Positions 28,101-29,896 of a stretch of 64,000 nt of DNA are shown here, in pieces (positions within the stretch are counted from its first letter, which is position 1; the number at the start of each line of letters is the position of its first letter). The position numbers and the translations under genes were made by a program. Location: positions 5,952,501 to 6,016,500 of the forward strand of contig NZ_CP109796.1 of the NCBI RefSeq assembly GCF_038725785.1, read 5' to 3'. This DNA comes from Termitidicoccus mucosus (lineage in GTDB: Bacteria > Verrucomicrobiota > Verrucomicrobiia > Opitutales > Opitutaceae). The notes beneath the pieces were generated by a model, which saw nothing but the letters and a program-made list of their open reading frames with translations, did no database searches and was not told the DNA's origin.

Positions 28101-29896
28101 TGCTTGTATCCTTTACTTCAGGAATGATTGTGACAGACATTAACGGAGATACGGTCACTGTCACGGGAATGTTCGCGGCCTTGTCTTATGATAACGGCGA
28201 AACATGGCCGCACAGGCGCCTTGTAACGGATGACGGCCCTCCTAAAGAATATGATGGAATGGGCAATACTGGGAAGTTCACTATGAGTAAGACGACTGCG
28301 GAGCCGAAAGGATATCTCGCAGGCGTTCAGGCACGCAACGGTGTGATACACCTGGTCAGCAGCGGTGTATACTATTCATTCAATGAAGCATGGATCAAGG
28401 CGCCCTTTTCCACCGGGGTCGACCTTTCGCCTTCCGACTTGGCGCCACCCGGCGACCAGACTGTTTTCGCCAACCAAAGCCTCTCGCTCCACGCCACGGT
28501 TGCCGATGGTTTTGTTGTGTCCATTCAATGGCAGGTTTCCACCGATGGCGGCGCAACTTGGCGCGACATCGGCACTGATTCCGGCGACGTCGGCATCTAC
28601 TCCGGTGAAGGCACCGCCACGCTCGCCATCGACTGCGTCACCGCCGGCATGAACGGCTGGCGACATCGCTATGTTGCGAGCACCGCGCCCGGCAACGGCG
28701 TGCCCAGCACGGTTTCCATCCTTACCGTCAATCCTTCGTATTTCGAGGGGCCGTCCGCGATTGTCGCCGACCAGTCTGGCGACCTCTACGTGGCCGACCG
28801 AGCGGCGCACGCCATCCGGCGCATTACTGGTGTCAACAAAACCCACCTCTTCGCCGGCAGCACCGCAGGCCAACCTGGCGCCACCGATGCCACCGGCACC
28901 GCCGCCCGTTTCAACGAGCCCTCCGCCCTTGCGGTCCGCTCCGGCACGCTCTTTGTCGCCGATGGCGGCAATCACGCCATCCGCGCGATTTCCGCCGTCG
29001 CTGCCGTGACCACGTTTGCGGGCAAGACCGGCGAATCCGGCTTCGCCGATGGCGCGGCTACCATCGCGCGCTTCAACCATCCCGGCGGCATTGCGTTTGA
29101 TTCCGCCAGCAACGCCTACGTGGCCGACACCGGCAACCACGCCATCCGCAAAATCGCCCTCGACGGCACCGTGAGCACCATCGCCGGAGCCATCCCGGTG
29201 TTCTTCAACTCCCCCACCGGCATCGCGGTCTCGAAAAACGGCGACCATCTCTACGTGGCCGACACCGGCAATCACGCTATCCGCGCCATCGCGCTTCCCG
29301 ACGGGGCTGTGACCACCTTCGCCGGCGTTTCCGGTACCGCCGGTTGCACCGAAGGCGCGCCCGGGCAAACGCTCCTCGACTCCCCCTCCGGCCTCCTCAT
29401 CGACGGTGAGGACACGCTTTACGTGGCCGACACTGGCAACTCCCGCATCCTCGAAATCACCGCCAGCGGCTCTTCGCGCACCCTCGCCGGCAATCCCGGC
29501 TTTGCCGGATTCCAGGACGGTTCCACCTCCTCCGCGTGGTTCGACCATCCCGGCGGGATCACGATGGATTCCTCGGGGAATCTCTACATTGCCGACACCG
29601 GCAATGCCGTCATCCGCAAAATCGCGCTTTCGGGCAGTGTTTCCACTCTCATCCTAACCTCGACAACCGCGCCCACCCCGCCCCCCGACCCTGACGGCAA
29701 CGGCAGTGGCAACACTGGTGGCGACGCAGGCCAACACCTGCCGGAACGAATGGATTTTAGCCGCGGTGGTGGCGGCGGCGGAGGCGGCGCACCCAGCGTT
29801 TGGTTCCTGTTCACCTGCGTTGTCACCACGGCATTACGTTTTCGCAAAAAATGGTTCTTGGACGTTGTCAGAGAAAACGGAGGGGATGGCGAATGA
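25160..29896 (+). CDS. Multidomain surface protein: 2x LamG-like, FGE-like, sialidase-like, Ig, NHL, C-terminal anchor
   Basis: 1578 aa from ATG 25160 (AAGGGA 9 bases upstream; ATG 25037 is an alternative). Signal peptide at ~1-25. Two ~200-residue concanavalin/LamG-like repeats at ~36-232 and 239-437 are near copies ('[19 protein letters not shown]' in both). An FGE-sulfatase-type domain spans ~447-682 ('[20 protein letters not shown]', '[19 protein letters not shown]') but the catalytic cysteines are absent, so it is not a true formylglycine generator. A BNR domain lies at ~723-1080 ([24 protein letters not shown]), an Ig-like domain at ~1090-1190 and five or more NHL units ('[12 protein letters not shown]') to ~1497. 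It ends in Pro/Asn-rich linker, eight Gly, '[16 protein letters not shown]' and RFRKK. GC content rises abruptly near 28400, at the start of the Ig part. Confidence 0.85.
   Translation: [1578 protein letters not shown]

Follow-up and report, generated by a model that had tools for sequence, protein, structure and literature searches.

The window analysed here, a stretch of 64,000 nucleotides, encodes two large proteins whose C-termini look alike. The question raised by this locus is whether the common end is a sorting signal, and if so which enzyme reads it. The source genome comprises 7.9 Mb in two contigs and belongs to a member of the Opitutaceae close to Ereboglobus, conjecturally from a termite gut.

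Two window proteins and the tail family in the genome

Surface protein 1 (1578 aa) is encoded on the plus strand at 25160..29896, within a frame that is open from 25037. A signal-peptide-like N-terminus is followed by two similar N-terminal repeats, an FGE-sulfatase domain, a BNR/sialidase-like region, NHL repeats, a linker and then the tail. The tail begins with a run of eight Gly (29765..29788, plus strand), beyond which (29789..29893, plus strand) come APSVWF, a hydrophobic stretch, the basic cluster RFRKK and a short extension. Surface protein 2 (1728 aa) is encoded by the complement of 46166..51352. Its signal-peptide-like N-terminus leads into a large N-terminal region that has no Pfam match, and this is followed by fn3 and Ig-like segments (weak matches), NHL repeats, a linker and the tail, i.e. 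nine Gly (46271..46297, minus strand) and then 17 residues (not shown) and a basic end (46169..46270, minus strand). The terminal sequences (30 residues of protein 1 and 26 of protein 2, not shown) share a run of 8-9 Gly, the motif A-(P/L)-S-x-W-(F/Y), ~16 residues that are mostly hydrophobic, and after these some that are basic.

The original prediction described these as two unrelated proteins with the same terminal pattern. The pattern is real and the Gly counts of eight and nine are right, but the word unrelated holds for only part of the chains. The N-terminal halves do differ, the FGE-sulfatase and BNR domains being confined to protein 1 and lying further upstream than its NHL repeats, but NHL propeller repeats precede the tail in both proteins and these matches are strong. 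The second protein was correctly placed, although its strand is minus. Scans of both full-length proteins with NCBIfam named no sorting signal. An HMM constructed solely from tails that adjoin rhombosortases in other genomes matched exactly two proteins among the 531 ORFs of the window, these being proteins 1 and 2 (E = 4e-8 and 4e-6; the next best match was 0.86).

The tail is not a peculiarity of this pair. An initial pattern scan of the genome was too narrow (11 matches) and was superseded by a tail HMM, which found 58 places. True C-termini account for 49 of these (48 distinct), including the two window tails, with 20-43 residues between the Ala and the stop. In the gap-free columns (n = 48) GGG is invariant, A is present in 45/48 and Pro in 32/48, the next position is Ser, Gly, Thr or Ala, W is found in 36/48, and there is an R at +16 in 38/48. 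By a simple heuristic, 42 of the 46 further tailed proteins have a signal-peptide-like start, and 34 of the 46 have at least two NHL motifs. NHL domains were found in 30 of 37 tailed proteins scanned with Pfam and Ig-type domains in about one third, while some contain pectate lyase, cellulase, BNR or peptidase domains. The matches L101 and L104 were not convincing as tails. We note that L105 and L106 (G000:C1:58746 and 2729012; frames of 497 and 152 residues) have identical tail ends at places that are far apart, and a recent duplication is possible.

Could the tail be a plain C-terminal membrane anchor that is never cleaved? Its hydrophobic stretch, with the basic residues behind it, would allow insertion in a membrane. 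However, the conservation of GGG, A and W goes far beyond what an anchor needs. In addition the tail is both co-distributed with and adjacent to one clade of protease, and internal copies that precede a TonB-dependent receptor (see below) make little sense if they stay uncut. We regard the uncleaved anchor as highly improbable.

Co-distribution with one rhombosortase clade

The genome encodes three exosortases and three rhomboids. Two of the rhomboids are above the TIGR03902 cut-off for rhombosortases (100 and 104 bits, cut-off 84), and are encoded at C1:151185-151655 and C1:3593896; the third (L015) was rejected as a rhombosortase, falling far below the cut-off. The exosortases (L012, L013 and L014) are of different types, one of them closest to XrtQ.

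The enzyme at C1:151185-151655 belongs to a group that we term clade M. This is monophyletic with 100% bootstrap in a tree of 23 rhombosortases, from which the G104 enzyme and two enzymes below the cut-off were omitted; among 141 genomes of the class it contains one enzyme from each of seven genomes that have the tail, and nothing else. In 29 clade M sequences neither the Ser of GLS nor the His of AH varies. The rhombosortase of this genome is 93% identical to one from a MAG to which the organism is close. A structural model of a clade M protein with 93% identity has a mean pLDDT of 85, and GlpG structures were its first and almost only matches. The enzyme is thus predicted to be a rhomboid in fold, with a catalytic pair of Ser and His.

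In the survey of the class, the tail was found in seven of the 141 genomes, all from one family. A rhombosortase over the cut-off is present in 7/7 of these compared with 17/141 overall. By contrast, exosortases are present in 113/141, including all 15 genomes of the family, with or without the tail. The original prediction of a sorting signal allowed for either type of enzyme, and the co-distribution supports the rhombosortase and not the exosortase as the partner. The tail might still be read as a PEP-CTERM-like signal by one of the three exosortases that coexist with it in this genome, the architecture being of the same kind. Yet the exosortases do not track the tail, the Pro-Glu-Pro motif is absent, and the PEP-CTERM model touched only one of 46 tails (E = 0.96), so that this reading is very unlikely.

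The association with clade M was examined across 200 genomes of the family, using a tail profile built from the window source genome only. Scores with the clade M profile are split, being at least 239 bits in one group and at most 142 bits in the other. Clade M is present in 52 genomes and the tail in 50, with 49 in common. Thus a search for a co-distributed membrane protease, suggested in the original prediction, has led to the clade M rhombosortase, which is found in 49/50 genomes with the tail and in 3/150 of the others. Fisher's test gives p = 7e-42, although the genomes are related so that this overstates their independence. A better argument comes from joint variation inside several genera; the tail comes and goes with the enzyme within g4, g5, g6, g12, g90, g94, g110 and g112. 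Three genomes have clade M with no scored tail (G191, G208 and G155). In G191 and G208 there is an upstream tail of the form SPSxWF; G155 showed no tail around its clade M enzyme. One genome (G322) has a tail match and no clade M; its assembly is 85% complete and in 700 contigs.

Tail and enzyme are also neighbours. A gene with the tail lies within 2.5 kb of clade M in at least 23/52 genomes, among the matches listed. At 30 of 45 clade M loci taken separately from named genomes, some of which are also in the set of 200, the directly upstream gene, encoded in the same direction, has the tail at its end, a typical example having 19 residues (not shown). The 30 do not include L147 and L165, where the upstream match is something other than this tail. 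Those upstream products that were examined are of matrixin-like, pectate-lyase or NHL type. In the window source genome, the neighbourhood of the clade M gene showed no tail. Enzyme and targets are known to lie apart in genomes with many targets and to adjoin where these are few (PMC3237569), and this genome, with its many targets, fits that pattern.

The neighbours of the other rhombosortase clades are different. The second rhombosortase of this genome adjoins a VIT/VWA protein that ends GGGGGGALE (L108:6233-8371 and L108:5307-6023, minus strand), and in other genomes a third type adjoins the rhombotarget lipoprotein TIGR04179. The VIT/VWA and TIGR04179 proteins are found in the same bacterial family, as single targets beside rhombosortases of other clades; they differ from the tailed proteins studied here in being paired one-to-one and in having tails (GGGALDG or GGGGGGALE) that lack S-x-W. 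Since each clade has its own neighbours with different tails, clades and tail types go together. While the enzyme encoded at C1:3593896 is itself a rhombosortase over the cut-off and might cut the tails studied here, its clade is associated with the GGGGGGALE tail and is found in genomes that lack the tail family (G039, G073 and G129). It is extremely unlikely to be the processing enzyme.

A GlyGly-CTERM variant and its probable processing

These results are strong support for a C-terminal sorting signal in three parts, co-distributed with a membrane protease. The closest known system is GlyGly-CTERM/rhombosortase (TIGR03501/TIGR03902; PMC3237569, PMC6219818, PMC13393428). The tail shares with this a Gly-rich motif, an aromatic position, the lack of Cys, a hydrophobic stretch and a basic end, together with the enzyme family and the rule that a target adjoins its enzyme where targets are few and is apart where they are many. 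Thus in architecture, absence of Cys, co-occurrence with a rhombosortase, an adjoining target and a signal peptide (the last by heuristic) it behaves as a GlyGly-CTERM signal. It differs in sequence (GGG-A-P-S-x-W-F, whereas the published motif is often SGGS), in its 49 targets (the 2011 survey gave a maximum of 13 for any genome; PMC3237569), and in having its own rhombosortase clade and internal copies. In that survey Haft and Varghese listed one target in Opitutus terrae (PMC3237569).

At the curated cut-off of TIGR03501 there was no match to the full-length window proteins, nor to tail 1 alone. Two of ten other tails pass this cut-off, and 26/46 match at E values up to 1. Since the curated model does not detect the window tails, we call the tail a variant rather than a plain member of GlyGly-CTERM. 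The suggestion that it might define a new anchor class was too strong, given that the enzyme is a TIGR03902 protein, that several tails are near or above the TIGR03501 cut-off, and that the rules match those described in PMC3237569. We therefore consider that the tail, a variant of GlyGly-CTERM found in the Opitutaceae, very probably serves for recognition by a rhombosortase and is cut by clade M.

The MYXO-CTERM/myxosortase system (PMC11980579) also has dozens of targets per genome, and its model gives weak matches here (34/46 tails at E values up to 1). If the tail were a MYXO-CTERM signal cut by myxosortase, the invariant Cys that separates the two types (PMC3237569) should be present in the signature motif, but it is missing from 48/48 tails. 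This, together with the co-distribution of the tail with a rhombosortase, leaves a myxosortase next to no probability.

We propose that the tailed proteins would enter the Sec pathway by means of the signal peptide, and that the tail, of consensus GGG(G)n-A-P-S-x-W-F followed by a short transmembrane stretch and Arg/Lys, would halt them in the inner membrane. Cleavage is most likely performed by the clade M rhombosortase after the last Gly. By analogy with VesB (PMC6219818), the cut would fall between this Gly and the Ala, i.e. at 29788/29789 in tail 1. In VesB of Vibrio cholerae, rhombosortase action leaves the second Gly exposed, and this is followed by addition of a glycerophosphoethanolamine moiety and then by type II secretion (PMC6219818); here too the new C-terminal Gly would probably be joined to a lipid-linked amine. 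The protein might then reach the outer surface, perhaps through a type II-like pathway. The genome encodes a GspD-like secretin that covers the whole model at a score below the cut-off, with an adjoining GspE-like ATPase that is also below the cut-off, and on these gene contents a type II-like export route is possible.

Internal copies of the tail

The tail is not always terminal. In five stop-free ORFs, four from this genome and the other from a relative (G173), a surface protein is followed by the tail, a basic stretch, a second signal-peptide-like segment and a TonB-dependent receptor (L201:1564-11133, minus strand; L202:2893-13920, plus; L203:2961-14537, minus; L204:1746-11213, minus; L207:1214-12355, plus). 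The surface part is of NHL/Ig type where scanned, and the receptor has both plug and barrel. There is no ATG, GTG or TTG between the tail and the second signal-like segment in L202 and L204. A fifth such ORF of the genome (L200:6372-13853, minus strand) is without the second signal segment, and its receptor part continues in the next frame; a frameshift or decay of this copy may account for it. In L205:4839-16001 (minus strand), L212:6663-19502 (plus) and L214:3264-15437 (minus) the tail comes after the first ~1000 residues and a further secreted protein lies behind it, the L212 ORF running past the end of the stretch analysed. The other two ORFs each join two tailed proteins, and the domain behind the tail is GH28 in L205 and pectinesterase in L214. 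L092 differs in that what lies downstream of the tailed gene is a frame of its own, apparently the beginning of a gene for a TonB-dependent receptor.

An internal tail placed before a second secretion signal would split a polyprotein in two. We give an even chance to the idea that the rhombosortase tail serves also as an internal cleavage site in polyproteins, which would be cut with the help of signal peptidase into two envelope proteins at a fixed ratio of 1:1. In such a chain a surface protein of NHL/Ig type would come first, then the tail and a second signal peptide, and last a whole TonB-dependent receptor or a second tailed enzyme. Alternatively the fused ORFs may be an error of assembly or may carry internal translation starts. 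Neither this variant of the tail nor such polyproteins were found reported in the literature searched, which is not proof of their absence.

The sorting signal of the two window proteins, in which it escapes NCBI's curated models, is now assigned to one clade of rhombosortase, and a single bacterium has ~49 predicted substrates. Three rhombosortase clades and three types of tail occur side by side, so that the choice of substrate becomes testable. If the internal copies are cut, intramembrane proteolysis would have a new use in bacteria.
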